DNA of 64,000 bases from a virus: positions 1 through 64,000 of IMG/VR virus record IMGVR_UViG_3300029999_000002; one strand, 5' to 3'. The position numbers and the translations under genes are program-made. Of the stretch, positions 3,201-56,213 are shown piece by piece. Each line of letters begins with the position of its first letter. Position 1 is the first letter of the stretch. The notes below the pieces were generated by a model. The model was not told the DNA's origin and did no database searches. It saw nothing but the letters and a program-made list of their open reading frames with translations.

Positions 3201-3328
3201 TACTTGGTCTCCTTCTTCAGGTACCAGTCCGCCGGCCGGATATACTCATCGAAGGTGCCAAGCTTGGGAGCAGGAGGTCCAGGCTTCAGGTTCGGGTTGA
3301 TCACAACTGGGAATCCTAGAATCTTCAT
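3200..3328 (-). CDS. small proline-rich hypothetical protein
   Basis: A 42-residue protein with a Pro/Lys-rich middle (PNLKPGPPAPKLG) and the end DEYIRPADWYLKKETK. Its ATG overlaps the stop of the nucleotidyltransferase gene by four bases (ATGA) and its stop touches the next GTG. It is accepted because it fills the gap between two coupled genes exactly. The function is unknown. Confidence 0.6.
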   Translation of the reverse strand: MKILGFPVVINPNLKPGPPAPKLGTFDEYIRPADWYLKKETK

Positions 3329-4098
3329 GCGCCCAACTTCCAGTGCTTCAGATAGGCTTCAGTGATCAACTTTGAGATCGCAACACGATCCACATATCGA
3401 GGCAGATTGGACTCAACTTCAGCGCGGAGAACCTGGAGCTCAAGCTGACAGAACAACTGCTCCACATAGGTCTGAGTGAACTCACCCTGCCTGATGCTCA
3501 GAAGTAGATCGACATCCGGACGAGGGTACGTGATGATTCCTGTCTCCAAGAACTCTAGACATTCACTCATCATCCGGATCATGTGCATGGCTGCCTTTGT
3601 GTCATATCCCTTGGAGTCATCTCGCTGCCCATGCTTGCCGGCACCCTTGAGCCCCTGCAGCCGGTGCAACTGATTCCTGCCCATACCCAAGAAGCCCTTG
3701 GCGTGGGACGAGGCGAGGAACAGATGCCGGTTTGGCAGAATGACTTCCTTCCAGACACCCTCGATGGTAGTTGGCGCGAACAGATACCCGAGAACAGTTG
3801 GGTTCCCTTTGGCAGCCAGTGTTGCCCATTTGCGTAGAGTGTAAAGCTGGTAGTCCACGTCGGCCGAAGTGTTCTTGCTGGTTTGGTCCGAAGTGCTGGT
3901 GACAAAATGCTCTTCACGGTCCAGCCCAAGTGCCATCACTGGACTCTCGATGAACACACCGTAGACATCCAGATCCATCTTGCCGGGGAGCATGGCACCG
4001 TGCAGTTGGCTCCCACCTGCGAACACATGGAGCAACTTGTCTTCATGTTTGAAGCCTCTATCAGCCAGGGCTGAGAGCAGGATGTCATTAGTTACCAT
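3325..4098 (-). CDS. RlaP-like nucleotidyltransferase
   Basis: A 257-residue protein with the signature of the DNA polymerase beta-like nucleotidyltransferase superfamily: AGGSQLHG, about 12 residues later DLDVYGV (metal-binding acids), and a long helical C-terminal half. This fits the RlaP (RNA-ligase-associated) branch, common in phages. The family is expected to transfer a nucleotide to RNA or protein; the substrate here is unknown. It lies in the leftward early operon. Confidence 0.7.
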   Translation of the reverse strand: MVTNDILLSALADRGFKHEDKLLHVFAGGSQLHGAMLPGKMDLDVYGVFIESPVMALGLDREEHFVTSTSDQTSKNTSADVDYQLYTLRKWATLAAKGNPTVLGYLFAPTTIEGVWKEVILPNRHLFLASSHAKGFLGMGRNQLHRLQGLKGAGKHGQRDDSKGYDTKAAMHMIRMMSECLEFLETGIITYPRPDVDLLLSIRQGEFTQTYVEQLFCQLELQVLRAEVESNLPRYVDRVAISKLITEAYLKHWKLGA

Positions 4099-4681: not shown

Positions 4682-4862
4682 CTGCTTCCTTGAGGATAGT
4701 GACCTCAGAGAGTTTCAATTCGTGCCAACGCGCCCCATCAAAGTAATCCTTGAGATGCTCTTCAGCAATCTCAACGGCTTCATCGCGAGAAGCAATGTCG
4801 ATTCGCCGGAAAGAGCAATTGGCGCACTTCAGTTTGAACTTCTGTACGACTTGGATTTCCAT
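4668..4862 (-). CDS. small CxxC hypothetical protein
   Basis: A 64-residue protein with CANC near residue 14 and a predicted alpha/beta pattern, possibly a metal-binding or adaptor protein. The ATG at 4862 overlaps the stop of the upstream gene (TGATG), a better start than the upstream frame extension. The C-terminus is acidic (EADEDE). Confidence 0.65.
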   Translation of the reverse strand: MEIQVVQKFKLKCANCSFRRIDIASRDEAVEIAEEHLKDYFDGARWHELKLSEVTILKEADEDE

Positions 4863-5194
4863 CAGACCGTCACCGCCTTCGGGTGATAACTGAACACGAA
4901 GCAAGGATAGTAATCATCATAATCCGACGTACCAATCTCCAACCAAACATGACCGTCGTCAATATCAACCAATTGGTGACCATCAATGTTGGGAGCGTTC
5001 TCGACCCGAACACGCGCGATGACAGTCTGGAAGAAGATGAGCCCCTCAGGGTCCTTGACCTCGATGCTACCCAAGCTAGAACGATAACCATCATCTTCGT
5101 CTTCCAGGGCCTCGAACACAGTGTCACCCAGCTTGAAGGAGTTGTTGTCCACTCCGTAGAAATCAAATTCTTGTCCAACCAGTTTATCTAGCAT
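4862..5194 (-). CDS. acidic hypothetical protein
   Basis: A 110-residue, strongly acidic protein with alternating hydrophobic beta-strand patterns (VWLEIGTSDYDDYYPCFVFS). No catalytic motif is visible. GAGAGGGAAG lies just before the ATG. Two other frames across this stretch are also open; this one is preferred because its start and stop mesh with both neighbours and the product looks globular. Confidence 0.7.
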   Translation of the reverse strand: MLDKLVGQEFDFYGVDNNSFKLGDTVFEALEDEDDGYRSSLGSIEVKDPEGLIFFQTVIARVRVENAPNIDGHQLVDIDDGHVWLEIGTSDYDDYYPCFVFSYHPKAVTV

Positions 5195-5350
5195 CTACTT
5201 CCCTCTCATTGAGAACAACTTATAAATCATTCCACCCAGCTTCCGTTGCCGGCCGCTCTTCGTCAGAGGAATCCCAATCTTCATTCCCAGGTTCCTCTTC
5301 ATCCTAGTTATGCCTGTCAATCGCTTCAGGCTGAATCCGCCTCGGTTCAT
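5195..5350 (-). CDS. small basic protein
   Basis: A 51-residue, very basic protein (RMKRNLGMK, then KSGRQRKLGG). The ATG overlaps the stop of the upstream gene (ATGA) and the TAG directly precedes the next ATG. It is accepted because it fills the gap in an otherwise gapless operon. Possible nucleic-acid binder by charge only. Confidence 0.6.
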   Translation of the reverse strand: MNRGGFSLKRLTGITRMKRNLGMKIGIPLTKSGRQRKLGGMIYKLFSMRGK

Positions 5351-5709
5351 GAGTCACCATACTTTCCGCCAGCCTTCTGCATCTCTTCAACCGTCGCCCA
5401 CGTGCCACCATTATTCACAGTAGTGAAAGTCTTTGGCTTCTTGGCCGGTACAGGAAGACTGTTGAACGTCCAGCACTCGGAACCATCATATTCATCGCGG
5501 TCCAGCCAGAAATCATCTCCAACTACTACAAGGTCACTTGCAATGAGTTGAGACCCATACCCTGCGTTGTAGTCAACGTCAGCGATCTTGGCAAACTCTG
5601 CCCAAGTGATGGAGAATTTACCGTCACTGGAACCGACCCAGATTACATCTTCTGAGCAGCGATCATTTGACTCCAACTGGTTCAACGTTTCCTGCAAAAG
5701 ATTAGTCAA
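5347..5709 (-). CDS. hypothetical protein, first gene of the leftward early operon
   Basis: A 120-residue acidic protein without a recognised domain. Translation probably starts at TTG 5709, because GAGGTGA lies seven bases upstream and a promoter (5733-5780) is placed just before it. It heads a 14-gene co-directional unit running to 1593. Confidence 0.65.
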   Translation of the reverse strand: MTNLLQETLNQLESNDRCSEDVIWVGSSDGKFSITWAEFAKIADVDYNAGYGSQLIASDLVVVGDDFWLDRDEYDGSECWTFNSLPVPAKKPKTFTTVNNGGTWATVEEMQKAGGKYGDS

Positions 5710-5732
5710 TGTCTATCACCTCACTGAACCCA

Positions 5733-5780
5733 ACACTACACACCATCAGGCAGCATGTCAAGACTTTTCTTCCTGTATAG
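5733..5780 (-). promoter_or_regulatory. ATRCAG-type early promoter
   Basis: On the minus strand: CTATACAG (5773-5780), 11 bases, TTGACA (5756-5761), 17 bases, TAGTGT (5733-5738). It has the same geometry as five other promoters in the window. It drives the 5709-1593 operon; the start would be near 5726, giving a leader of about 17 bases that contains the ribosome binding site. Confidence 0.75.
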
Positions 5781-5782
5781 CT

Positions 5783-6049
5783 CTAATGAGAAAACTTCTT
5801 TGTGAGCCAGATTGCAACCAGTGAGCCACATGTTCCGCCCAGGGTGAATCCAGCCAGACCCAAATGGCTCTTGTCACCTTCAGTTGAAATCTTCCTGATG
5901 ATGAAGTAACTGTTCAGTCCGTAAGCAGTATCCGTCAGGATGATCCCAAGATAGCTGCCCTTTGATAGCACAATGATGCTGAGGCAGAAGAGAAGATACT
6001 GTGTGAACTGTACTGCGAACAGGGTGAGGAACTCGCGCCACTTAGCCAT
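5783..6049 (-). CDS. small multi-span membrane protein
   Basis: An 88-residue protein with two or three hydrophobic segments (about residues 6-30, 33-52, 66-82) and a basic C-terminus (WLTKKFSH), probably in the inner membrane. The ATG at 6049 overlaps the end of the Pth2-like gene, which fixes the start. Function unknown. Confidence 0.65.
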   Translation of the reverse strand: MAKWREFLTLFAVQFTQYLLFCLSIIVLSKGSYLGIILTDTAYGLNSYFIIRKISTEGDKSHLGLAGFTLGGTCGSLVAIWLTKKFSH

Positions 6050-6473
6050 TACAGATGCACTCATCAAGGAGCTTGTCAGTGATCGTATCGTGGGACCAGA
6101 GGAGCAGTTGCTGAAATTGGTCACCAATTTCAGCAACTGTTACTGGGTGCGTGCAAATAGCCGTCATAAACCCCAATGCTGACCCATACACTTCAAGATT
6201 TGTATCGAAGAAGGTTTCCACGGGAATACCCTCCCATCCCTCTTTCAAAATGCAGTAGAGGTCATGCAGACTATGATTGCTCGGAGCCGACAGCACAATA
6301 GTAGTGATGGGTTGATAGACTAAATGACCAGTAGCTCTCGCAAGCACCATGCGCATCTTCGACACGACGTGCGCACACTGTGCAGCAATCCGTCCGCAGG
6401 GTTGAACGATCACGCCATTAGGCGTGTCAACAGTCCCGGCCACCACGACGTAGATTATTTTCTCTTCGCTCAC
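6042..6473 (-). CDS. Pth2-like protein (peptidyl-tRNA hydrolase 2 fold)
   Basis: A 143-residue protein. The stretch GRIAAQCAHVV matches the GKIAAQCAHA signature of type 2 peptidyl-tRNA hydrolases, and the later GIPVETFFD...VYGSALGFMTAI fits the family core. Pth2 enzymes release peptides from stalled peptidyl-tRNA. It overlaps the CCA-adding enzyme gene by four bases, so both are probably made together in a tRNA-maintenance unit. The assignment rests on motif recall, not a search. Confidence 0.6.
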   Translation of the reverse strand: MSEEKIIYVVVAGTVDTPNGVIVQPCGRIAAQCAHVVSKMRMVLARATGHLVYQPITTIVLSAPSNHSLHDLYCILKEGWEGIPVETFFDTNLEVYGSALGFMTAICTHPVTVAEIGDQFQQLLLWSHDTITDKLLDECICNG

Positions 6474-7783
6474 GCTGTCTCCAATGTCATTACAAGATCA
6501 TGCATCGCTGTCAACGCTTCATCCCGAGTTGAAACCTTGCCCTCAAGCTGAAGTGTCTCGATACCTTCCAGAACCTCTTTGAATCTCGGACCAGGCGTCA
6601 GACCGTAGGCAATCAAGTCCTCACCTGTTACCAACCGAGCCGGCCGCAACACAGCAGGAGGCAGATCGACCAGCATCTTTGTGCAATGCTCGTAATTCCC
6701 CAGGTTTCCTGATCCAGCAGTAGCATCCAGCCTGTGGAGTTCCAGCAGCTCACTGAAGTTGTCCTGACGCAGAAATCTCATCAGCTTGGCCTTCCGCATC
6801 AGCTTCGAGACACGGAATGTCATGTGCTGGGCAACATGGCTGACAACAACCTCGATCACCTCGTTCGGGTACTTGAGCCGGCGCAGGATGTCCTCAGCAA
6901 TTGGCGCTCCTGCCTCTTCGTGCCCATGGAACGTAGGCTGCCCATCTTTGAGGGCAAACGTGGCAGGCTTCCCAATGTCATGCAGGAGAGCAGCAAGAGC
7001 CAAAGTCAGGGAGCAACCTGGTTCCAACTGTTCAAGCAACTTGAGTGTGTGGATTAGCACATTGCCTTCAGGATGGTACACAGGGTTCTGCTCACAGTGG
7101 AACAAGTTATTGAACTCAGGTAAGAAATGATGCAGCAGCCCTGAGCAGTAGAGAGCCCACAGACCATCCGCAGCCATGCCTGATGTCAGGATCTTGCTGA
7201 GCTCCATCTGAACCCGTTCTGCGCTCACCTTTGTGATCAGAGGGGAACAATCCTGAATCGCTTTGTATGTCGAATCCTCAACCCTGAACCCAAGCTGGGC
7301 AGCAAACCTGATTGCACGTAGCATCCGGAGTGGGTCCTCGATGAACCGATCACTGGGATTGCCCACAGCGCGCACGAGACCCAGCGCGAGATCCTTCTCG
7401 CCATGGAGTGGGTCCAGGATGTGACCATCTGCGTCCATGGTGATTGCATTTATCGTGAAATCTCTTCGCAATAAATCTTCCCGCAAGTTGCGCGTGAATG
7501 TTACAGTGTCTGGATGCCTAGAATCAGAATAGTTGCCGTCCGTGCGGAATGTCGCTACCTCCGCTGAGGCGCCGTCATAGTTCACTAGCACTACGCCGAA
7601 TGCTGCCCCAACTTTCTTCGTGTCCGAAAACAGGTCGGCAATTTCCTGTGAATCTGCTGATGTAGCAATGTCAACATCCTTGCTCCAGCGCTGCAGCAGA
7701 TGGTCACGAACGCAGCCGCCGACGAAATACGCTTTGTGTCCCGCCTGGTTCAGTTCGCGCAGAATTGATTTATGCTGTTGCAT
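6470..7783 (-). CDS. cca: CCA-adding tRNA nucleotidyltransferase with HD domain
   Basis: A 437-residue enzyme of the class II poly(A) polymerase/CCA transferase family. GGCVRD, then DVDIAT (catalytic Asp pair), RRDFTINAI and EDPLRMLRAIRFA mark the head and neck; ALLHDIGKPA in the C-terminal half is an HD phosphohydrolase motif. It adds or repairs the 3' CCA of tRNAs. This fits the phage tRNA-Arg at 56248, which does not encode CCA. A phage-borne full-length enzyme is uncommon. AAAGGGAA precedes the ATG. Confidence 0.92.
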   Translation of the reverse strand: MQQHKSILRELNQAGHKAYFVGGCVRDHLLQRWSKDVDIATSADSQEIADLFSDTKKVGAAFGVVLVNYDGASAEVATFRTDGNYSDSRHPDTVTFTRNLREDLLRRDFTINAITMDADGHILDPLHGEKDLALGLVRAVGNPSDRFIEDPLRMLRAIRFAAQLGFRVEDSTYKAIQDCSPLITKVSAERVQMELSKILTSGMAADGLWALYCSGLLHHFLPEFNNLFHCEQNPVYHPEGNVLIHTLKLLEQLEPGCSLTLALAALLHDIGKPATFALKDGQPTFHGHEEAGAPIAEDILRRLKYPNEVIEVVVSHVAQHMTFRVSKLMRKAKLMRFLRQDNFSELLELHRLDATAGSGNLGNYEHCTKMLVDLPPAVLRPARLVTGEDLIAYGLTPGPRFKEVLEGIETLQLEGKVSTRDEALTAMHDLVMTLETA

Positions 7784-8978: not shown

Positions 8979-9374
8979 ATGTCCCCCGCAAATGAAAAGC
9001 CGCTCAAAAGTGCAAGCCTAGGACTTGTGCTTCAACAAAAAGTCAAGGAGATGGGGTCCAACCCGCGAAGGCTATCTGCTGAAATAGACTATGCTTATGA
9101 CCATGTACGAAAGGTCTACAACGGCAGTGAGTTTCCTGGAAATACACTTCTCAAGAAACTCTGCACATACCTCAAGCTGGACTATGAGGAGATGCTTTCA
9201 CTAGTGGAGGCAGACAGGGCTTTCGACAAAGGCTGGCTTGATCTGGTTCTTGAAGAAGATCCTGCTGTCACCGATCTGAAGCGCTTCTGGCCTCACCTCA
9301 CCACAAATGACCGCGCTGAAATTCTTGACTTAGTAAAGACCAAAGCCGCCAGAGCTACAAGCGGTAAACGCTAG
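8979..9374 (+). CDS. helix-turn-helix repressor-like protein
   Basis: A 131-residue protein. Residues 15-70 (LVLQQKVKEMGSNPRRLSAE, then the recognition-like DHVRKVYNGSEFPG and LLKKLCTYLKLD) resemble an XRE/CI-type DNA-binding domain; the C-terminal half is acidic and could dimerise. GAGAGG precedes the ATG. It has its own promoter and converges on the dUTPase gene with a four-base overlap. It is a plausible lysogeny or early-gene repressor. Confidence 0.7.
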   Translation: MSPANEKPLKSASLGLVLQQKVKEMGSNPRRLSAEIDYAYDHVRKVYNGSEFPGNTLLKKLCTYLKLDYEEMLSLVEADRAFDKGWLDLVLEEDPAVTDLKRFWPHLTTNDRAEILDLVKTKAARATSGKR

Positions 9375-9808
9375 GTCCCTGTGCTACCAAATCCACCAGT
9401 GCCCCGTGCACTGTCTTCCAGGGCCATAACTTCCTCAATGCTCTCACCCGTGAACACTTCGGTTGGGAGCATTTGTGCGATACGGTCTCCTGCCTTGATC
9501 GTGAATGCTATAGCATGGCTCGTCATGATGACCTTGAGCTCACCTGTGTATCCAGCATCGATGACGCCGGCCGATACGGTGACGCCCTTAGCTGCTATTG
9601 AAGATCGATCCTTCAGCAGCAACCCAAACGTTCGTGCATCTTGATGTGACAGATGGAATGAGGCAGACACACCTGTTCTTACAAACGCGCGAACGCCTGG
9701 TTGAAGGAACACATCCTCCAAAGCGTACAGATCAAATCCAAGATCCTTTCCAGGGTGTGCAACTGTGGGCAGAATTGCCCCATCTTCAAGCCGTTTTACT
9801 TTTAGCAT
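9371..9808 (-). CDS. dut: deoxyuridine triphosphatase (dUTPase)
   Basis: A 145-residue enzyme with all five trimeric dUTPase motifs in order: DLGFDLYA, DRSSIAAKG, GVIDAGYTGE, KAGDRIAQM and the P-loop-like RGTGGFGSTG at the C-terminus. It hydrolyses dUTP to dUMP, keeping uracil out of phage DNA and feeding dTTP synthesis. It is the last gene of the polymerase-sigma-dut operon and overlaps the sigma gene by seven bases. Confidence 0.95.
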   Translation of the reverse strand: MLKVKRLEDGAILPTVAHPGKDLGFDLYALEDVFLQPGVRAFVRTGVSASFHLSHQDARTFGLLLKDRSSIAAKGVTVSAGVIDAGYTGELKVIMTSHAIAFTIKAGDRIAQMLPTEVFTGESIEEVMALEDSARGTGGFGSTGT

Positions 9809-10392
9809 CTTTGTAGCTTCCTCACTTTGGTTCTCATGTACCTAACTCGTTCCTTCACCGCTGTCTCAGTGAGGCCCATTGTGCTACCGATCTGCTCATA
9901 GTCCAGTCCCTGCCGAATGTAGTTGCAAATCAGCAGGTCGTGCCCCTGAATGAAATCAGGAAGCTTTCGCATGTACTGAACAGGTTCATCCCGGTAGAGT
10001 GCAGGATTGTCGTCAATGAAGCCATCCTCTCCCTCGATCTGCAACGGAACCCGCTTTGACACTTCCTTTGTTGAACTACTTTGTGCATCAGCCCCATGTG
10101 TATAGCAAATACGATTTAACCAAGAGTAGAAAATACTACAATCCCCCTTGAATGACGGTAGCTTGCTCCACACGATTAGCACAATGTCTTGCGCAAAGTC
10201 TTCCGCTCCCTCTGCCAGGTCATCCATGTCAAACAACACCGAGGTCATCTTTCCTCTTGCGAACTCGGTGACAGCCTTAAACAGAACTCCTTCAGACCCC
10301 TCTTCCTTTGCGAGGTAGCTTGCAAATGCTTTGTCAATCTTTGCCCGATTTCTTTTATAACCAATCTCGCGCAACCTACTCACTTCTGCCAC
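9802..10392 (-). CDS. ECF-type sigma factor
   Basis: A 196-residue protein with the two-domain plan of extracytoplasmic-function sigma factors. Region 2 lies around AEDFAQDIVLIVWSKLPSF and the following YSWLNRICY; region 4 is the C-terminal helix-turn-helix (LDYEQIGSTMGLTETAVKER). It should direct host RNA polymerase to phage promoters. It is translated from the polymerase operon (13-base overlap). The duplicated CACACTT-N15-GGTCTA promoters at 13838 and 14441 are its best candidate targets. Confidence 0.85.
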   Translation of the reverse strand: MAEVSRLREIGYKRNRAKIDKAFASYLAKEEGSEGVLFKAVTEFARGKMTSVLFDMDDLAEGAEDFAQDIVLIVWSKLPSFKGDCSIFYSWLNRICYTHGADAQSSSTKEVSKRVPLQIEGEDGFIDDNPALYRDEPVQYMRKLPDFIQGHDLLICNYIRQGLDYEQIGSTMGLTETAVKERVRYMRTKVRKLQRC

Positions 10393-12866
10393 CTTTTCGA
10401 GATCATCCCATCTGACTCCATCGGAACCACCTTCACGAACTCGGCGCCTGCGCGAATGATTGCATCTTCAACTGCGTCTGATACAGCCTGACTGTGTTGC
10501 TCCGGAGACTCAACAACAAACTCGTCATAGACATAGTTGAGCAGGAGAGCCAGGTAATCCGGTTCCAACACATGCCACAGATAAGGCTTTCCGTTAGGAT
10601 CAAACCCGCAGCCCATTGCGAGCATCATGAGTCGCGCACCTGTGCCCTGAATCGGCATATTTCCCGCTTCACGTTTCACAGCTGCAATCAAGTTCTGCAT
10701 CATCTGTGTGATCTTGTTCTGATCACACTTGTCACCATACTTTTCATACGCAGACTTCTTCGCTTGCTCATAGGAGACCTTCCGCATGATGCGCCTGCCA
10801 CCAGCTAGGTCTCGCGCCTCGCCCTTCTCATAGCCGTCGCTGCGAAGCTTCTCAAGGGTCTTCTGCGTGATCGCAAACTTTGTCTTCCAGGCATTGAGCA
10901 TGACCTCAACAACGTCCTTCGACTTCCCTAGCTCGTTGGCAAAGGAGAAGGCACTCTTGTCATAAACGACGCCAAAATTGAATGCCTTGTAGTCATTGCG
11001 GACCTCTTTGTGTTTGGGGCATTCACACTTCAACTGACCCTGATAGTAATAGGCACACTGAGGGTACGTCTTGACCTTGCCATGCACCGAGAGAACTGTC
11101 TCTGCATGGAGTGCGGACTTCTGCCACAGTTCAGGACTGATCATCTCGGCCGACATTGAGTGCAGATCCTTCTTGCCGAGGAAGGCAGAGATCCAAGCGG
11201 GTTCCTTTGAATACTCTGTGAGGATGCGAAGCTCTTGGCCGGCGCAATCCTTGCACACCATGTCATGGCCCTCGCGCGACACAAACGCTTCGCGATAGCG
11301 CCCCTCTTGCGGAAGGTTGAGCATGTTTGGGTTGGTGCAGGATGGTCTGCCTGTATCTGCTCCCGACTGCTGGAACCGAGCGTGGATTCGCCCGGTATGT
11401 GGGTCAACGAATCCCTTCTTTCCCGTTCGCTCATCAACCTGGTCCAGCGTAAGAATCCACCTGTACCCATATGTGGACAGAGCCTTTTCCAAACTGCGCT
11501 TCTTGCGTATGGCCTTGATGACAGGCAAGTCCGCGTGCTTCTCCATCGCCTTGTCGTTGGACTCTTTCATGTTGACCTTGTTGAGTCCAAAGTCTCCAGC
11601 CCAGAGTGCATTAAGAAGCTGCTGGGGAGCGTTGTAGTTGATGGCAGCCTGCCCCTGCATCTTGCTGAAGTCACTCTTGGCTTTAGCATTTCCCTTTGCT
11701 CGCTCCGCTGTGTATTCCTCTTTGGCAACAGCCTTGGCTGCCTTCCGCGCTGCCTCATGTGCAGACCGTAGCTCTTTGAGTTCAGCAGTGCGAACAGGGT
11801 CCTTGCGACAAAGGCGCAGTTGGGCGCTGAGATCAATCTCCTCGGGAGACTTCTCGTCATAGGACTTCCACACTGTCTCTAGACGATCAATGGCAGCCTG
11901 GTCCCACATTTGCTTCTGCCCCACAACTGGCAGGAAGTGTTTGTCCATCTCGTCAATGGCGGCTAGCAGGTCTCGTTCGTTGTCCTCATTGATCTTCTTC
12001 CACTGCTCGGGATCAGCCAGCATCCCGTTCAGGTGCATGTCACCGAACGCGGGAATCGCATCCATGGTGATCCGAACAGACCTGTCAAGCTTCGCCTCTG
12101 CCACCTTCTTCAGTTGCGTGCTGTAGATTCCAAAGGGCAGACGAATGTCCAGCGCCATGTAGATGATTTGTTCATCAGTCAGAGGGGACGATAGATCGAA
12201 TGTGGTCTGCGACTCTTTGCTAATCTGCAACTTCTGGTAACGGCGAACGAGGTCAGCGAGTCCCCAGAAGTCTTTCTGGTGGACAGGAATCAGGCCGGCC
12301 GTGAGATCTCGTTCTGCCCTGAGTGTGCACCAGAAGTTCCAGGCGCGAATGCCCAGGCACCACTTCGAGACCGTGTACTCGAACTCAAGGAAGTGGCCAA
12401 TCTTCAGATGGCTATTCGATTCCAACGTGGGACGGATCACCTTGATAACAGGTTCGAGAATTGACCTGTCCTCTGCGGACATGGTATTATTTTCCCTGTA
12501 TAGCCCTTGTCCCCTGATTAGCCGTTCTGGGGTTTCGGCAAATGCAAGGAGATCAATCAGGTACTGCTCATTGCGGTCCCCTATCTGCAGAGTCCGAGCT
12601 CGTCTGTTGTAGAAGGTGTCTACGCAGTTGGTTTCATAATCGAAGACGTACTTGTCAACTCGCGCATAGTATGCAGCCAGCTTGTCAAGTCCTGCCCCAT
12701 CAACCACCATGATGGGATTGAGCGAAGGAACCAGAGTGTACGGGTTCAGTTTGGGAATGTCTGGATACTTGTTCTCTTCCTCTTCGGAGGCATCAAGATC
12801 AAATCCAGGATAGGAAGCAAACCGTTTCAGGTCGAGATCAAATTCGTAAACATCGAGTTTCTGCAT
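10380..12866 (-). CDS. polA: family A DNA polymerase with 3'-5' exonuclease domain
   Basis: An 828-residue replicative polymerase. An N-terminal DEDD exonuclease domain carries VFDYETN. The polymerase core has GRIHARFQQSGADTGRPSC, motif A as KDCAGQELRILTEY, motif B as KAFNFGVVYD and motif C as VYDEFVVE. Between A and B is a Cys/His-rich insertion (QCAYYYQGQLKCECPKH) that could bind zinc. The promoter at 12875-12920 places the transcript start at or within two bases of the ATG, so the mRNA should be leaderless. Confidence 0.95.
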   Translation of the reverse strand: MQKLDVYEFDLDLKRFASYPGFDLDASEEEENKYPDIPKLNPYTLVPSLNPIMVVDGAGLDKLAAYYARVDKYVFDYETNCVDTFYNRRARTLQIGDRNEQYLIDLLAFAETPERLIRGQGLYRENNTMSAEDRSILEPVIKVIRPTLESNSHLKIGHFLEFEYTVSKWCLGIRAWNFWCTLRAERDLTAGLIPVHQKDFWGLADLVRRYQKLQISKESQTTFDLSSPLTDEQIIYMALDIRLPFGIYSTQLKKVAEAKLDRSVRITMDAIPAFGDMHLNGMLADPEQWKKINEDNERDLLAAIDEMDKHFLPVVGQKQMWDQAAIDRLETVWKSYDEKSPEEIDLSAQLRLCRKDPVRTAELKELRSAHEAARKAAKAVAKEEYTAERAKGNAKAKSDFSKMQGQAAINYNAPQQLLNALWAGDFGLNKVNMKESNDKAMEKHADLPVIKAIRKKRSLEKALSTYGYRWILTLDQVDERTGKKGFVDPHTGRIHARFQQSGADTGRPSCTNPNMLNLPQEGRYREAFVSREGHDMVCKDCAGQELRILTEYSKEPAWISAFLGKKDLHSMSAEMISPELWQKSALHAETVLSVHGKVKTYPQCAYYYQGQLKCECPKHKEVRNDYKAFNFGVVYDKSAFSFANELGKSKDVVEVMLNAWKTKFAITQKTLEKLRSDGYEKGEARDLAGGRRIMRKVSYEQAKKSAYEKYGDKCDQNKITQMMQNLIAAVKREAGNMPIQGTGARLMMLAMGCGFDPNGKPYLWHVLEPDYLALLLNYVYDEFVVESPEQHSQAVSDAVEDAIIRAGAEFVKVVPMESDGMISKRWQK

Positions 12867-12874
12867 GAGGTTCT

Positions 12875-12920
12875 AGTATGGAGCAAGTCCTCACGCATGT
12901 CAAGGTTTTTTATACTGCAT
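12875..12920 (-). promoter_or_regulatory. ATRCAG-type promoter giving a leaderless polymerase transcript
   Basis: Minus strand: GATGCAG (box 12915-12920), 11 bases, TTGACA (12898-12903), 17 bases, CATACT (12875-12880). Only eight bases separate the -10 from the ATG, so transcription should begin at about the start codon. It controls polA, the ECF sigma gene and dut. Confidence 0.75.
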
Positions 12921-12934
12921 CAAGGGAGTGTCAA

Positions 12935-13237
12935 ATGGCAGAAGATTTCAATAACGTAAAGGTATGGATGGAAGGCAAGCTGAGGGATCGTGGGCTGAGC
13001 ACCAGTCGACTGACACACCTAACTGGATACAAGATTTCCAGTGCTTCAGTCTTCCGATGGTACAACGACACATTCCGGCCGACTGAGAACAATATGCAAT
13101 TGATTTGCGATACGCTCAACCGGGTACCGCTGGTGACAAACAGTGCCACTCCTAAGTTTCAGGAAGTTCCCCTAGCCGAGGGAATGGCACAATTCAGTAA
13201 GCGCCCATGGAAGAACCGTACTAAACAAACACGCTGA
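12935..13237 (+). CDS. helix-turn-helix DNA-binding protein
   Basis: A 100-residue protein. LSTSRLTHLTG and SSASVFRWYNDTFRPTENN look like the two helices of an XRE-type domain, followed by LQICDTL-like dimerisation helices and a basic C-terminus. GGGAG lies six bases before the ATG. It is divergent from polA, with its start 15 bases beyond the ATRCAG box, so it is well placed to control that promoter. Confidence 0.7.
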   Translation: MAEDFNNVKVWMEGKLRDRGLSTSRLTHLTGYKISSASVFRWYNDTFRPTENNMQLICDTLNRVPLVTNSATPKFQEVPLAEGMAQFSKRPWKNRTKQTR

Positions 13238-13721
13238 CCGTGTATTTCTCTCCAAGTACCAACAACTGCAGCATATCGACCTGAGTGTCACCAAGTTTGA
13301 AACCCCGGTCGGCGACGGGAGGGTTACCCCAGACAGCCAGCTGGTGTGTTTCATACATTGAACAAAACTTTGACTTGAGTTGGTCTGCGAAGATTGCGTC
13401 AAGTGTCGGCGCCCCATCCAGGAGATAGGACAGATCCCCGTCAATAATCTTTAGACCACCAAACTCATCCTCCACTGTAAAGCCCAGGAAAATATGTTCA
13501 TCAAAATGTGCCCGGAGGCTCTCTTTTGCAGAGGCGCATAGGGTAGTGTGAGATACGGTTGCATCACAACTACAGGAACACCGGGAGCAAAAGTGCAGAC
13601 AACAGATGCGGCATTGGTTGAGATCGTCCGGAAGAAACGAGTGGCATCCAGCACAGAAAGCAGATGCTAACGTTATTGTTCTTAGAGAGTTACCTATTTG
13701 CTCTGCAATTGATGGTTTAAT
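13221..13721 (-). CDS. Cys-rich putative zinc-binding protein, start uncertain
   Basis: The frame is open from 13811 to 13221 but has no ATG, GTG or TTG until 13475. The part upstream of that GTG encodes an ordered cysteine array: CAGC, nine or ten residues, CRICC, CSRC, CSC, typical of a zinc ribbon or RING-like fold, so translation probably starts further up. ATT at 13721 has GGGTG five bases before it. The C-terminal 85 residues (from EDEFGGLKIIDGD) look globular. It overlaps the convergent regulator by 17 bases. Confidence 0.5.
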   Translation of the reverse strand: MKPSIAEQIGNSLRTITLASAFCAGCHSFLPDDLNQCRICCLHFCSRCSCSCDATVSHTTLCASAKESLRAHFDEHIFLGFTVEDEFGGLKIIDGDLSYLLDGAPTLDAIFADQLKSKFCSMYETHQLAVWGNPPVADRGFKLGDTQVDMLQLLVLGEKYTVSVFV

Positions 13722-13809
13722 GGTTACACCCGAGGGAATGAATTGTGTGCAGCGAAAGTAACTAGATAGTACACTATTTAAATTCTCTGCATAGGGTTGC
13801 CCTGTGGAA

Positions 13810-13892
13810 AACTATTTTGCATCTATTTCACTACTACTTCACACTTGCCTCTTCAAAAAACGGTCTATGACTATAGAGGGATAAATAAGTTT
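13810..13892 (+). promoter_or_regulatory. duplicated promoter block, copy 1 (ECF-like)
   Basis: The block shares about 65 of 83 positions, with no gaps, with 14413-14495. Invariant parts are AACTATTTT, CTATTTC, TTCACACTT (13838-13846), an A-tract and CGGTCTATGACTATAGAGGG (13861-13880). CACACTT, 15 bases, GGTCTA has the form of an ECF sigma promoter. Transcription would begin around 13875-13880, exactly where the structured RNA starts. A sigma70 reading is poor. Confidence 0.7.
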
Positions 13893-14300
13893 GTTCCCTT
13901 CTTTGGCGACTTGAACACCAGTCGCGGATTCCTGAGACAGCCTCACAGATGCCGGAACTCTCCAGAGCGAGAAGGCGTGAGCAACCTGAAACCCAGATGA
14001 TCCCAATACCCTGACGTTTACGATCAGGTCCACCAGACAAAGGTGATGAGGCAGTTTGCCGGCTTTGTACCTGCATGACGGTACCGCATCGATGAGGCTC
14101 GCTTGGAGCTCCGCAACATTCGGTCATGCGTTAAGAGGGAGTGCATTCCTACAAAGGGGAATGGCTGCGTAATGACCGGGATAGCCAAGCTTAGATGGGA
14201 ATACCCATTCCGAAACCCCCTCCCTCTAATTGACAGCTAGGTCTTAACTAGGAAACAGTGTTGTTTACTTAATCTATAAACAATGATTGTAAACAACTTA
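13880..14300 (+). ncRNA. large structured RNA 1
   Basis: This stretch of about 420 bases has no supported gene but many perfect helices: GCGACT/AGTCGC (13906/13920), CCTGA/TCAGG (14010/14024), GTACC/GGTAC (14067/14080), CGGTCAT/ATGACCG (14121/14172), CATTCC/GGAATG (14144/14158) and ATGGG/CCCAT (14195/14204). TAGAGGG at 13874 can pair with CCCTCTA at 14222 and close the whole molecule; the latter can also pair with AGAGGGAG at 14134, crossing the 14121 helix as a pseudoknot. No known RNA family is recognised. Confidence 0.65.
14260..14297. repeat. inverted repeat with alternative pairing
   Basis: GTTGTTTAC (14260-14268) and GTAAACAAC (14289-14297) form a perfect nine-base inverted repeat. A second copy of the right arm core, TAAACAA at about 14277, can pair with TTGTTTA instead, giving a shorter hairpin. 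No T-tract follows, so it is not a classic terminator. It may end RNA 1, act as a switch, or bind a protein. AT-rich sequence with further short repeats follows. Confidence 0.55.
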
Positions 14301-14412
14301 GTAACATATTGTTAACTACGCGCGAGATAAAAATTTTGTAGATTTTCGCCAAGCGAGAGGCAGAAGAGGCAGAAAGTTTCTTGCATTGTCGGTGTTCCGC
14401 CCCGGCCCCGCG

Positions 14413-14495
14413 AACTATTTTCAAACTATTTCTTTCTAGATTCACACTTAGTTGTCAAAAAAACGGTCTATGACTATAGAGGGGTAATTAAGTTT
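14413..14495 (+). promoter_or_regulatory. duplicated promoter block, copy 2 (ECF-like)
   Basis: Aligns without gaps to 13810-13892 (offset 603). TTCACACTT lies at 14441-14449 and CGGTCTATGACTATAGAGGG at 14464-14483, with the same 15-base spacing between CACACTT and GGTCTA. It precedes structured RNA 2, and no terminator is visible before the late operon, so it is the best candidate late promoter. Confidence 0.7.
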
Positions 14496-14960
14496 TACCT
14501 TCCCGCGCATAGTATGCGCACCCAATAAATACAAATTTGACTTTGCGCGCTGCCATTGTGTTGGTCGGTTCACGACTCCAGGCGCGCGTTCCTATGTGAA
14601 GCCGAAATCCCCACTTCCGGGTGCAACCCTCGTTTCGTGGGTCAGTAGGGCTTTCCCGGTAGAAATCCGGCACATAGGTAAATTCCGAGAAACCCTTAGG
14701 GGATGAAGGTACAGAACGGCTTGATGGAGCTTTGAAGAGCCCTGCCGAGACAAGAAGCAACTCCCATGACACTACTCGACTGTACGAGTGGATCTCAGAG
14801 CCTTATGGTGTCTGACTAATGTGTCTTCTCGATTGACGAGACTCCCTCGGATGGGCTTCAACCCAAAGTGGAGCAAGCGGGGTTCATAGCCCTGCACCCG
14901 TTCACCTGCCATGTGTAGGAGGAATTGGACTGACGCTGCGCGCCGGTCTCAAACAGATGG
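14483..14960 (+). ncRNA. large structured RNA 2 / possible late-operon leader
   Basis: About 480 bases with dense helices: GCGCATA/TATGCGC (14505), GCGCGC/GCGCGC (14544/14582), CCTATGTG/CACATAGG (14591/14671) enclosing CCG/CGG, CCGGG/CCCGG (14617/14655) and ACCC/GGGT (14626/14639), then CTACTCG/CGAGTGG (14772/14785), TCTCG/CGAGA (about 14825/14835) and GCGGGG/CCCTGC (14877/14890). The nested order makes a branched fold likely. A 94-residue leftward frame across it has no family and is rejected. The 3' end is unclear; no terminator is seen before 15054. Confidence 0.65.
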
Positions 14961-15053
14961 GGCGTGGAAGTTTGATTACAAAGCATTGACTCCGCGCGAC
15001 ATGATTACTGCTCTGATGCGGATTATCCACGTAGCGCAAATCAGGAGGTTCCA

Positions 15054-15221
15054 ATGATCAATCCATTCAAACATACAGGCAAAGTAGTATCGGATGCGTA
15101 TAAGTCCGCCAATGGCAGTGACTGTTGCCCTGGTCTGTGTGTGGCAGCCACCACGGTATTTGTTCTACCTTTTGCAGTTCCCTACTCTCTGGTTAGTGCC
15201 TTCTTCAAGAAGTCTGAGTAG
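15054..15221 (+). CDS. small membrane protein before the packaging genes
   Basis: A 55-residue protein with a polar N-terminus (NPFKHTGKVVSDAYK) and one hydrophobic helix (about residues 29-51). AGGAGG lies five bases before the ATG, a very strong site. The stop TAG shares its G with the GTG of the HNH gene, so the two are coupled. It is the first gene of the rightward late unit. Function unknown. Confidence 0.7.
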   Translation: MINPFKHTGKVVSDAYKSANGSDCCPGLCVAATTVFVLPFAVPYSLVSAFFKKSE

Positions 15222-15610
15222 TGGCCCAACGCACCAAGAAGAACTGTGCAACGGCTGGCTGCCCGAATAAGAGCCTCACACGCTGGTGTGATACCTGCGC
15301 TAAGGTTCCAGCCATCGTGCGCCCCTACGACACCCTGAGGGGCAGCAGTACGGCTCGTGGATATGATTACCAGTGGAAGCGCACCAGGCTAGTGGCCCTC
15401 AGGCGGGATCATTTTCTCTGTCAGCGCTGCCTCCAGATGGAGAACCGGCCGACTCCTGCAACTGAAGTCCATCACATCATCGGTATCGACGAGGACCCAA
15501 GCCTGAGGCTGGTTGTAGAAAACCTGATGTCCGTCTGCTCACCGTGTCATAAGGTGCTAACGATTGAGGATCAGGGTGTGTTCGGAAGAGCACCAACAAA
15601 TAAAGCTTAG
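15221..15610 (+). CDS. HNH endonuclease next to terminase
   Basis: A 129-residue protein with two CxxC-type zinc knuckles near the N-terminus (CPNKSLTRWCDTC) and an HNH core: CQRC, then EVHHI, ENLMSVCSPCH. Small HNH proteins placed directly before terminase are often needed for DNA packaging in cos-type phages, cutting together with the large terminase subunit. Its position here fits that role. Translation is coupled to the preceding gene. Confidence 0.88.
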   Translation: MAQRTKKNCATAGCPNKSLTRWCDTCAKVPAIVRPYDTLRGSSTARGYDYQWKRTRLVALRRDHFLCQRCLQMENRPTPATEVHHIIGIDEDPSLRLVVENLMSVCSPCHKVLTIEDQGVFGRAPTNKA

Positions 15611-15619
15611 GTGGGAACA

Positions 15620-16006
15620 ATGGCACCAAGAACTAAAACGCTTGATGAGGCACTGCTTTCCGGTGCAGTAGCTAAGAATCCCCAGCGTTACACTGATAGA
15701 CCCCCAGCCGTTCCCAAAGAACCTCTAGGTCGCGCCCCACGTCACTTGAACGCTAAGGAGCAGAAGGTTTGGCGTGAGCTCATTGCTCAGGCCCCTGCCG
15801 GATCTCTCGGAACCTGTGACACAGTGGCCATCGAGGTTGCTGTCCGGATGACGATGATGATGCGCGAAGGCAAGATGCTGAAGACCAGCGAACTTGCCAG
15901 TTACTTCAAGGTGCTTACTTCCCTTGGGATGACGCCGGCCGACCGTGGGAGAATCGCAGTAGCACCCCCACCAGAAAGTGATGACGGCCTCAGCGATCTT
16001 GACTAG
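15620..16006 (+). CDS. terS: terminase small subunit (P27-like)
   Basis: A 128-residue protein with a Pro-rich N-terminus, then LNAKEQKVWRELIAQAPAG and a helical part ending FKVLTSLGMTPADRGRI, a pattern typical of P27-family small terminases. It recognises phage DNA and hands it to the large subunit. ATG 15620 is preferred over GTG 15611 because GGTGGG lies four bases before it. It lies between the HNH and large terminase genes. Confidence 0.85.
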   Translation: MAPRTKTLDEALLSGAVAKNPQRYTDRPPAVPKEPLGRAPRHLNAKEQKVWRELIAQAPAGSLGTCDTVAIEVAVRMTMMMREGKMLKTSELASYFKVLTSLGMTPADRGRIAVAPPPESDDGLSDLD

Positions 16007-16023
16007 GCACGAAAGGATTATCT

Positions 16024-17763
16024 GTGCCTCGACTTCTAAACGGCCTCACACATCCTGAGGCTGCAACTCAGTATGCGCGCGACGTTGTAGACGGCACGAT
16101 AGTAGCCTGCAAATTCGTAAAGCAAGCGTGCCTACGCCACTTGAACGACCTGGTTAGATCCGAGACCACAGATTATCCGTACGTGTATGACCACAAGAAG
16201 GCGCAGAGATTCTGCACGTTCTTTGAAAAGCTTCCACATGTTGAAGGCAAGTGGGCAGCGCGTAAAGAGCTTCTGGTCATGGAGCCATGGCAGTGCTTCA
16301 TTGCATGTTCCATATTTGGGTGGGTGAAGAAGTCAGATGGCTACCGCAGATTCAAGCGCGCCTACTGTTGTGTACCTCGTAAGAATGGCAAGAGCGCGTT
16401 TGCGGCTGTCATTGCTGATTTCATGTTGGTTCTCGATGGTGAGCATGGAGCGCAGGTATACTCTGGTGCCACTTCAAAGGATCAAGCATCATTCGTATTC
16501 AATCCAGCCAAGAAGATGCTGGAACAGTCCCCTGCTATCTGCAAGAAGTATGGTGTGGTAGTCAATGCAGACTCAGTAACTGTAATGAGGACAAACTCAA
16601 AGTTTGTCAGACTCATTGGCAATCCTGGTGATGGTTCCTCACCCCATGGATATATTTGTGACGAGCATCACGAGGCCGAAGACTCGCTTCAGTATGACAC
16701 AATGACTTCCGGAATGGGAGCTCGTGAGCAGCCCCTTGCCTTCGTCATTACCACTGCAGGCTTTAACACGGCTGGACCTTGCTACCTACTTCAGAAAGAC
16801 ATGGAGAAGATACTCGAAGGTTCTATGGTTGCAGAGACTAGATTTGCAATCATCTACACCTGCGATCTTGAAGCTTATACATTCAATGGGCAGGACTTTG
16901 AGCCTGATGACTGGACTTCGGAAGCCGCGCTAATAAAGGCCAACCCCAATTGGGGAACTTCAGTCAACATTGCTGACGCCTTGGAAGAGCAGCGGGAAGC
17001 CATTATCTCCACAGAGAAGCAGAACCTCTTCAAGACTAAGAAGCTGAACATCTGGTGCTTTGCACGTAATGGTTTCTTCAATGTTGCCAAATGGATTAAC
17101 TGCTTTGACAAAGAGATGAAGCGTGAAGACTTCCTGGGCAAGCCGTGCATCAAGGGTCTTGATCTAGGATCTCAGATTGATCTCACAGCCGACGTGACTG
17201 TGTTCCAGAAGATGAATGAGGCAGACAACACTCTGCACTATTACATCTTTGGTCGCTACTATGTTCCTGAAGCCACTGTTGAACTCCCCACGAATCAGCA
17301 CTATCAGAAGTGGGTTCACGACGGCGCACTAATTGCTACGCCTGGTGACGAGATTGATTATCCAACTGTTCGCACGAACATTCTAGTGGATGTCGCCGAG
17401 TTTGATGTCAAGGAGTTTGCATTTGACTCGCACCAAGCAACGCTGATGAAGCAGGAGATCATTGAAGAGACTGGGATCGAAGCTGGTGTTGTTACCCAGA
17501 ACGCTCAGACACTCAACATCCCCATGAAGTGGTTGCAGGCCATGATGACATCCGGCCGACTTCACCACGATGGGAACCCTGTACTCACCTGGTGTGTGTC
17601 GAACACGATCTCCAGAGAAGACCGCAACGAGAACGACTTTCCAAACAAAGAGAGACCCGAAAATAAGATTGACGGTGTGTCTGCGATGTTGTGTGCGTTC
17701 AGTCGAATTCGCGCAGTGCTTGGTGAGACTGGTGACGGAAAATTTGTTTATAACGGAATGTAG
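16024..17763 (+). CDS. terL: terminase large subunit
   Basis: A 579-residue packaging ATPase-nuclease. Walker A appears as CVPRKNGKSAFAA (about residue 117), Walker B as GYICDEHHEAED (about 210), and the nuclease domain begins with KGLDLGSQIDLTAD (about 375). It drives DNA into the prohead and cuts it. GTG start with AAAGGAT upstream. Length and motif order fit the Terminase_1 family used with HK97-type heads. Confidence 0.95.
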   Translation: MPRLLNGLTHPEAATQYARDVVDGTIVACKFVKQACLRHLNDLVRSETTDYPYVYDHKKAQRFCTFFEKLPHVEGKWAARKELLVMEPWQCFIACSIFGWVKKSDGYRRFKRAYCCVPRKNGKSAFAAVIADFMLVLDGEHGAQVYSGATSKDQASFVFNPAKKMLEQSPAICKKYGVVVNADSVTVMRTNSKFVRLIGNPGDGSSPHGYICDEHHEAEDSLQYDTMTSGMGAREQPLAFVITTAGFNTAGPCYLLQKDMEKILEGSMVAETRFAIIYTCDLEAYTFNGQDFEPDDWTSEAALIKANPNWGTSVNIADALEEQREAIISTEKQNLFKTKKLNIWCFARNGFFNVAKWINCFDKEMKREDFLGKPCIKGLDLGSQIDLTADVTVFQKMNEADNTLHYYIFGRYYVPEATVELPTNQHYQKWVHDGALIATPGDEIDYPTVRTNILVDVAEFDVKEFAFDSHQATLMKQEIIEETGIEAGVVTQNAQTLNIPMKWLQAMMTSGRLHHDGNPVLTWCVSNTISREDRNENDFPNKERPENKIDGVSAMLCAFSRIRAVLGETGDGKFVYNGM

Positions 17764-46303: not shown

Positions 46304-46335
46304 GAGGGACGTGCTTGTATAGGCGTCCCTCTTTT
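46304..46335 (+). terminator. repeated-type terminator before tailspike 3
   Basis: GAGGGACG, 12 bases, CGTCCCTC followed by TTTTCTTG. Nearly the same loop and tail as 49626. It also lies just upstream of the leftward epimerase gene start. Confidence 0.8.
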
Positions 46336-46365
46336 CTTGTATGACACCAGATAAGGACACAACTC

Positions 46366-49625: not shown

Positions 49626-49657
49626 GAGGGGCGCGCTTGTACAGGTGCCCCTCTTTT
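49626..49657 (+). terminator. repeated-type terminator after tailspike 3
   Basis: GAGGGGCGC, ten bases, GTGCCCCTC (one G-T pair) followed by TTTTCTTG. Third copy of the tailspike-flanking hairpin. Confidence 0.8.
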
Positions 49658-49675
49658 CTTGTTTATCGAGGTCTC

Positions 49676-55049: not shown

Positions 55050-56213
55050 ATCGAACTGCAACCGTCTGTCCCCACCGTCACAGTCTTCGTCCGGCACCGC
55101 GAGAAGTGCGAATTTGCGGACGATGAGGCCTACAAACGCTGTCGCTGTCTAAAGCATCTACGCTGGTATCAGAACGGCCGGCTGATGCGAAGGAAGACAG
55201 GGACCCGCAGCTGGTCCCTGGCTGTGGAAGCTCAGATCAAAGTGACCAATCAGTTACTGGCTGCCGCCCGTCCGGACGCTGTAAAGGTCCAGGCGGATGA
55301 CGCGCGTGATATGAGGCGCACAGTTGATCTCTTCCTTGCTAACCGTAGGGCAGAGGGTGCTGGCAAAGAGACCATGAGCAAGTACGCCAGGGAACTCGAA
55401 CGCTTCGTGGTGTTCATGGGGAAGCGGAACAAGTTCTTTCCCTCTGAGGTCGACCGTGAGCTCCTGATTGAATACAGAGACTCCTGGGACGCCATCTATC
55501 CTGCTAGCATCACTCGGAGCTTGGTCCTGATGCGCCTGAACACACTGCTGGCCTTCTGTGTCCAGATGGGGGATCTCAGGGTTGTGCCCAAGCTGTCCAA
55601 GATCAAGGTCCACAGGGAGCCCACACAGCCTCTCGTAGACGGCCAGTATCCGGCGCTGCTGAAGGCTGTGGAGGCCATGGGCGTCACTGACAGCATCCCT
55701 ACGGCCAAGAGGCTTGCTGTGGTCAAGCTGATGCGCTGGGCAGGCCCCTCGATCACAGATGCCATCATGATGCGCAGAGACAGTCTCAAGTGGGTACCCA
55801 AGCAGAATGAGTACCAACTGACCTACATCCGGATAAAGACCAAGGTGCGCGTGTCGTTCCCCATCCCGAAGTCACTGGGTGACGAACTGATTGAGGCAGG
55901 CAAGTTGTCAGACAGTCCAACGTACCTGTTCCAGATGAAGCATGAAGAAGGAACCGGCCGTGGGTCCAAGAGGCGCTGGGTTGACTTCTTTGCTGCTGCC
56001 TTTGTGAAGGCTGGGCAGCCTGGAGGCCACAGTCATCAACTGAGGGACACGTTTGCAGTCGGGCTGCTGCTCAAGGAAGTGGCCCTGGAAGACGTGTCGA
56101 AGGCGCTGGGTCACAAGTCCATCGTGGTGACAGAGAAGTATTACTCACCTTGGATCGTGGCGAGGCAGAACCGGCTGGATGACAAGATCAGGGCATCTTG
56201 GGATATTGATTAA
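55050..56213 (+). CDS. int: tyrosine integrase with non-canonical start
   Basis: The frame encodes the family's N-terminal zinc-like part (VFVRHREKCEFADDEAYK, then RCRC) before the first ATG at 55185, but no ATG, GTG or TTG lies upstream; ATC 55050 has TGAGG seven bases before it. About 387 residues. HQLRDTFA, LGHKS and KYYSPW give the His, second Arg, His and Tyr. The first catalytic Arg is not where expected (GPSITDA instead of GLRISDA). It inserts the phage, possibly at the adjacent tRNA-Arg. Confidence 0.85.
   Translation: MELQPSVPTVTVFVRHREKCEFADDEAYKRCRCLKHLRWYQNGRLMRRKTGTRSWSLAVEAQIKVTNQLLAAARPDAVKVQADDARDMRRTVDLFLANRRAEGAGKETMSKYARELERFVVFMGKRNKFFPSEVDRELLIEYRDSWDAIYPASITRSLVLMRLNTLLAFCVQMGDLRVVPKLSKIKVHREPTQPLVDGQYPALLKAVEAMGVTDSIPTAKRLAVVKLMRWAGPSITDAIMMRRDSLKWVPKQNEYQLTYIRIKTKVRVSFPIPKSLGDELIEAGKLSDSPTYLFQMKHEEGTGRGSKRRWVDFFAAAFVKAGQPGGHSHQLRDTFAVGLLLKEVALEDVSKALGHKSIVVTEKYYSPWIVARQNRLDDKIRASWDID

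Follow-up and report, generated by a model that had tools for sequence, protein, structure and literature searches.

How does a phage turn from its leftward early genes to its rightward packaging and structural genes? We addressed this question for the virus record IMGVR_UViG_3300029999_000002, which is 89,140 bases in full, by analyzing its first 64,000 bases (hereafter the window). The turn between the two gene groups lies at ~12.9-15.2 kb and holds two copies of an 83-nucleotide (nt) repeat, while a gene for a 196-residue protein resembling extracytoplasmic function (ECF) sigma factors lies in the early operon of the DNA polymerase gene polA. A sequence-only reading had placed the sigma gene in that operon and the blocks facing the late genes, which we could verify, and had suggested an early-to-late switch run by the phage's own sigma factor. 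Judging from the sequence, we lean toward the view that the phage sigma factor reads the two blocks.

Two repeated blocks face the late genes

The blocks (13810-13892 and 14413-14495, plus strand) are 78% identical without gaps. As first reported from the sequence, both contain CACACTT-N15-GGTCTA at equal spacing (13840-13867 and 14443-14470, plus strand), and the window has no further exact copy. This motif occurred twice in 0 of 100 shuffles, with 0.01 expected by chance. When up to 3 mismatches were allowed, CGGTCTATGACTATAGAGG was found in two copies in the whole record, and there is no third copy of the block anywhere in the record. The repetition is genuine and goes far beyond chance expectation.

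Each block begins with a CTATTT-N5-CTATTT pair (13812-13828 in block 1, 14415-14431 in block 2), followed by a candidate -35 element, CACACTT (13840-13846 and 14443-14449), and a candidate -10 element, GGTCTA (13862-13867 and 14465-14470), after which block 1 carries the conserved TGACTATAGAGGG. The conserved islands are the CTATTT pair, TTCACACTT and the run through CGGTCTATGACTATAGAGGG; the longest conserved run, CAAAAAACGGTCTATGACTATAGAGGG, extends past the -10. Both blocks face the genes for an HNH endonuclease and the small and large terminase subunits (terS and terL), and no other element facing this late cluster was found. We consider it likely that the blocks are promoters. The exact 17-mer GGTCTATGACTATAGAG was also detected in five IMG/VR contigs, with one copy each in unrelated context, which we read as chance.

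ECF-type promoters combine a -35 element with AAC(TT), a spacer of 15-17 nt and a -10 element with GTC. We scored the blocks against three consensus forms, using column shuffles as the control. Both copies fit 9 of 14 positions for two of the forms and 7 of 11 for the third, and for two of the three forms the layout of the blocks beats 92-94% of the shuffles. When a sigma70 layout is scored, practically every column shuffle matches or beats the blocks. The -10 contains GGTC and the -35 contains ACTT, as in the sigmaE-type (ECF) promoters of E. coli and P. aeruginosa, but the -35 lacks the GGAAC that is usual there. The blocks thus appear unlike host promoters and mildly ECF-like, and their reading as ECF promoters is suggestive.

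An ECF-like sigma factor gene in the early operon

The sigma gene (9802..10392, minus strand, GTG start) lies between polA, which encodes a family A DNA polymerase (10380..12866, minus strand; PF00476, E 2.5e-45), and the dUTPase gene dut (9371..9808, minus strand; PF00692, E 2.3e-25). Its start overlaps polA by 13 nt and its end overlaps dut. Because the three genes overlap, they are probably co-transcribed on one transcript. They are preceded by a sigma70-type early promoter, TTGACA-N17-CATACT (12875..12903, minus strand; family D2), which has an upstream element in common with other early promoters.

The regions 2 and 4 that had been recognized in the protein from its sequence are both supported by homology. 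It matches the NCBIfam model TIGR02937 (sigma70-ECF) across residues 60-192 at E 6.5e-8, with 32.4 bits against a curated cut-off of 42.9. The NCBIfam match to RpoE (E 1.2e-5) and the Pfam matches to region 4 (E 0.0069) and region 2 (E 0.023) are also under their cut-offs. As a yardstick we used gp36 of phage phiEco32, a sigma factor described as experimentally tested in the part of PMC9965538 that concerns it. Since gp36 reaches just E 4.1e-5 on TIGR02937 (Pfam region 2 at 0.002, region 4 without a match), weak model scores are not unusual for a phage sigma factor; the window protein outscores gp36 on TIGR02937. The best match among solved structures is P. aeruginosa SigH (6in7, E 9e-4). Of region 2, the phage protein retains SFKGDCSIFYSWLNRI, and its region 4 helix-turn-helix (HTH) resembles that of SigH; a two-element promoter would therefore be expected. 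Having regions 2 and 4 in one chain of ~200 amino acids, with no further sigma domains, the protein matches the ECF (group IV) sigma factors in domain make-up.

The best relative that we identified is a bacterial ECF sigma factor (L033, genome_contigs), which aligns along the length of the protein at 24-26% identity (E 7e-10 among candidate stretches). A two-row profile of the two proteins, which leans on the bacterial row, matched 24 distinct ECF sigma sequences among the solved structures at E ≤0.001. AlphaFold predictions with one and two input sequences had mean pLDDT values of 40.6 and 44.2 and were fairly confident in the region 4 HTH alone. No sigma relatives were detected in IMG/VR with either the single protein or the two-row alignment (A4) as the query, and a search of a phage collection returned one weak match. 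A second sigma-like match in the record (77517-77627) turned out to be an HNH endonuclease. No anti-sigma gene was recognized beside the sigma gene. We consider it very probable that the 196-residue protein is a sigma factor.

Late-facing promoters and sigma genes in related phages

Relatives were defined by polA, as the best 80 of 223 IMG/VR loci. The promoter test covered 63 of the 70 loci L037-L106; L044, L052, L057, L059, L096, L103 and L104 were dropped, either because the match was too close to the locus end or because the strand balance of long open reading frames (ORFs) was unlike that of the window. A promoter was counted as sigma70-like if it had at most 2 mismatches, faced the late side and lay within 2.6 kb of polA. 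Such promoters were found in 60 of the 63 loci (14.3 expected), in 41 of 44 after removal of near-duplicates (10.2 expected), and in 35 of 44 once the 400 bases adjoining polA were excluded as well (8.8 expected). Some of them may serve an HTH gene rather than the late genes. In the window, no sigma70-like promoter (at least 9/12) faces the late genes within 12500-15300, and the best candidate has 4 mismatches. That this phage appears to lack the host-type promoter seen in 60 of 63 relatives indirectly supports the blocks as the promoters of the sigma factor.

The sigma family search covered 50 records (including 42 of the 63 tested loci) and a further 8 that included the window's own; many of the records are fragments. 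None of the 42 searched loci gave a two-region match, and partial region 4 matches occurred just in L037, L040 and L041. Outside the window, both regions were matched in L116 and L117 alone, which are very large records with a distant polA. Region 4 alone was matched in four other records of the larger search and in one (the record of L016) of the smaller. By polA, the nearest named relatives are two phages of Tunturiibacter (Acidobacteriota), Tunturi_4 (34% identity) and Tunturi_3 (30%), neither of which has a sigma match anywhere in its record. Neither the sigma gene nor the pair of blocks is present in any of the close polA relatives examined.

Two of the polA relatives, L037 (53%) and L038 (37%), have an HTH gene between polA and the late genes. 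It corresponds (42% and 29%) to a Cro/C1-type HTH gene of the window (12878..13237, plus strand), a candidate regulator. At the position of the sigma gene, L037 encodes a different protein, which we read as HNH-like; it also has two tRNA genes and a sigma70-like promoter with an extended -10 (8248-8221, minus strand, read by eye). L038 has the sigma70 promoter TTGACA-N16-TATATT at 9055-9028 (minus strand). At the place of block 2, it carries AACTATTTTCAAACTATTT (9145-9127, minus strand), a 19-mer identical to 14413-14431.

We also noted that L037 has two promoter-like blocks on its minus strand, at 8470-8060 and 9980-9455, which are similar to each other (local score 98; the shuffles reached at most 69) and dissimilar to the blocks of the window. 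One precedes the HTH gene, the other the tRNA and late genes. In L017 and L018, the first part of terL shares 75% identity with that of the window, and the upstream sequence is unrelated. The L017 terL (4853-7210) is split by an insert of ~580 bases.

A possible sigma-driven late switch and its alternatives

The sequence evidence suggests that the host RNA polymerase transcribes the early polA-sigma-dut operon from its sigma70-type promoter, and homology indicates that this yields an ECF-like sigma factor. The sigma factor would join the host core and read the two blocks, using CACACTT as the -35 and GGTCTA as the -10. The CTATTT repeats, which lie at about -45 to -62, would serve as an activator or UP-like site. 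Transcription would start near 13873-13877 and 14476-14480, and the transcripts would cross two long non-coding leaders before the packaging and structural genes. In this region, the sequence shows no host-type promoter belonging to these genes, which would be served by the blocks.

Several observations weigh against the phage sigma factor as the reader of the blocks. Conservation peaks on the downstream side of the proposed -10, and an ECF promoter does not account for this. As for the ECF layout claimed from the sequence, 6-8% of column shuffles fit two of the consensus forms equally well (6.2%, 8.2% and 37% for the three forms). Because the opposite strand of the relatives gives 31/44 (24/44 without the 400 bases next to polA), their region is promoter-rich in both directions. 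For the window itself, shuffling gives P 0.27 for the absence of any sigma70-like match at up to 3 mismatches. The sequence-only reading had proposed checking whether related phages keep the sigma gene and the promoter together; no relative with both was found. In L038, the 19-mer lies ~75 nt upstream of the sigma70 promoter, on a 31.7-kb contig without a sigma match, so the AACTATTTTCAAACTATTT island is not tied to the sigma factor. In addition, one virus (L063/L064/L069) carries CACACTT-N14-GGTCTA around the sigma70 -35, inside a sigma70 promoter, 544 bases upstream of its polA match, and no sigma match was detected in L063 or L069. This is the sole virus with the motif in 2.93 Mb of loci, and since ~0.67 such matches are expected, it may be chance.

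The L038 finding bears on an explanation that we consider unlikely, in which the blocks are late promoters for the host holoenzyme and a phage activator bound to the CTATTT repeats, with the sigma factor serving other genes. Among 199 loci, CTATTT-N5-CTATTT is confined to the two blocks and the late region of L038, which has the HTH gene on its sigma-less contig. The activator could be, for example, the neighboring HTH protein or a Cys-rich protein from a frame opposite the HTH gene (13221..13700, minus strand). The start codon of this frame is ambiguous, and its coding score of 0.04 is slightly under that of the lowest true-gene segment (minimum 0.06, mean 0.29). However, neither block has a usable sigma70 -10 or -35, and the relatives have clear sigma70-like promoters at this place whereas the window phage does not.

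It is still less probable that the blocks are mainly paired replication or packaging sites (an origin, or cos/pac-like), with transcription coming from elsewhere. They adjoin HNH-terS-terL, their conservation extends past the -10, genes for RNase H and the family A polymerase are nearby, and the region has long non-coding DNA. Between the blocks is an AT-rich stretch (14230..14350, 31% GC) with inverted copies of TTGTTTAC/GTAAACAA, a possible operator or origin element. On the other hand, both asymmetric blocks point toward the late genes, the corresponding place in L037 and L038 is occupied by ordinary promoters, and the GC skew, computed for the window, shows no sharp turn beyond the change of gene strand. 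We also considered a ColE1-like origin primed by RNA, with RNase H, polA and a structured RNA as its components, but dropped it because no test was positive for it.

That the conserved ATGACTATAGAGGG core is the promoter of a T7-like single-subunit RNA polymerase is highly improbable: ACTATAGA seems to resemble the SP6/T7 promoter cores, but no ORF of the required size is a candidate for the polymerase, the five window ORFs of at least 780 amino acids being polA, the tape measure, a central tail fibre and a pair whose products contain collagen-like repeats, and the rest of the record having no ORF above 640 amino acids (a PF00940 search gave no match, but neither did its control, so it is uninformative).

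Relation to known phage sigma factors

The sequence-only reading knew of no comparable switch in other phages, which is wrong. According to the portions of the phiEco32 literature that deal with its transcription, the holoenzyme with the phage sigma factor gp36 reads some middle and all late genes (PMC9965538, PMC4281155, PMC7881722). As in phiEco32 and the Kuravirus-like phages 7-11, SU10 and Privateer, the window phage encodes an ECF-family sigma factor in its replication gene cluster and, as in phiEco32, the promoters would be conserved and of low copy number. Phage-sigma promoters are characterized, in the relevant passages of PMC4331800, as well conserved, of low copy number and found via pairwise comparison of intergenic regions, a picture that the two blocks before the late genes match. 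Thus, the type of system is already known, and the window phage is probably a further instance in another lineage.

There are also differences from phiEco32. The phiEco32 group consists of C3 podophages, whereas the window phage belongs to another, unrelated, integrase-bearing lineage, and gp36 shows weak similarity to the window sigma factor (BLASTP E 0.001 over a 61-residue stretch). The phiEco32-like promoters have an extended -10, tAATGTATAtA (PMC4281155), and no recognizable -35 (PMC5333181), as far as the promoter sections of these sources go. This extended -10 is not present in the blocks, which instead have a candidate two-element layout. The phiEco32 group also has a small regulator that inhibits the host sigma70 polymerase; none was identified in the window phage.

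Xpf of the B. subtilis prophage PBSX has a role in late transcription. It is described in the passage on PBSX in PMC10141391 as a two-domain (sigma2, sigma4) group IV protein and a positive control factor, and its likeness to the window sigma factor is one of domain make-up by description. PBSX differs in that its host is Gram-positive and the prophage is defective. Sigma homologues occur in <15% of >4,000 phage genomes, according to PMC9429907. Tunturi_4 and Tunturi_3 also have an early cluster with polA, and Tunturi_4 has a dUTPase gene as well, but between its polA and dUTPase genes, where the window phage has the sigma gene, the annotated product is a nucleotide phosphatase. The word "sigma" is absent from the main text of the Tunturi paper (PMC11924767), and our literature search found no paper on such a sigma factor in acidobacterial phages.

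What would be new is the lineage, which bears an integrase and is distantly related to acidobacterial phages, together with a two-element layout that differs from the phiEco32 one and the long run of non-coding DNA behind each block. A fuller scenario, which we offer tentatively and regard as doubtful in its entirety, concerns one branch of an integrase-bearing group whose other members use host-type late promoters. In this branch, a captured bacterial ECF sigma gene would have been inserted between polA and dut, and the late region would have been placed under two copies of a canonical two-element ECF promoter, with a long, structured non-coding RNA also made from each copy ahead of the late genes. 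If the phage sigma factor does read the blocks, late switches run by a sigma factor have also arisen in phages other than the phiEco32 group, phage ECF promoters include a two-element form unlike the phiEco32 type, and this phage and its sigma-less relatives are a natural before-and-after comparison for the change from host-type to own-sigma late promoters.

Non-coding stretches downstream of the blocks

Each block leads into non-coding DNA (~350 and ~560 nt) and not straight into genes. The stretches at 13900-14230 and 14496-15050 score as non-coding in six of six frames, and the minus-strand ORFs there score -0.19 (13834-14127) and ~0 (14488-14772). Given fold z values of -2.2 after block 1 (13893..14240, plus strand) and -1.2 for the leader from block 2 to the first late ORF (14496..15053, plus strand), compared with +0.8 for a neighboring stretch, RNA structure is suggested in the first stretch alone. 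The 5′ end of the proposed transcript, AGAGGGA, is complementary to 14221-14227. The two stretches are dissimilar to each other. At the gathering score, Rfam matched one tRNA and nothing else in the whole window, and no match was found in 13700-15100 at E up to 5.

Late genes, integrase and early-strand motifs

The first late ORF is small (55 codons; 15054..15221, plus strand), with AGGAGG upstream as read by eye. It is followed on the same strand by the HNH endonuclease gene (15221..15610), the first recognized late gene, and by terS (15611-16006) and terL (16024-17763). An integrase gene (55185-56213) adjoins a tRNA-Arg gene, which suggests that the phage is temperate.

The upstream element of the early promoters resembles GCTATACAGGAAAATAAACC and directly precedes TTGACAt on the minus strand. 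The -35 boxes of the promoters that share it are at ~5764, 8127, 12903, 56754 and 87894 of the record, the last beyond the window. The most over-represented 9-mer of the record is CTATACAGG, with 10 copies against 0.45 expected. All 10 copies (5781, 8147, 12504, 66076, 70444, 77724, 79983, 84629, 86970 and 88261 of the record, the last seven beyond the window) are on the early (minus) strand, both in and between genes. In this integrase-bearing phage, the sites recall the stoperator sites of mycobacteriophages, to judge by the account of such sites in part of PMC9283540. The late blocks carry a variant, CTATAGAGG, on the opposite strand.

The early region also encodes an RlaP-like RNA-repair nucleotidyltransferase (3325-4098) and a CCA-adding tRNA nucleotidyltransferase (6470-7783). 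Near the long genes of the tail region, we noted two similar terminator-like hairpins, GAGGG...CCCTCTTTTCTTGT, at 46304-46340 and 49626-49662.

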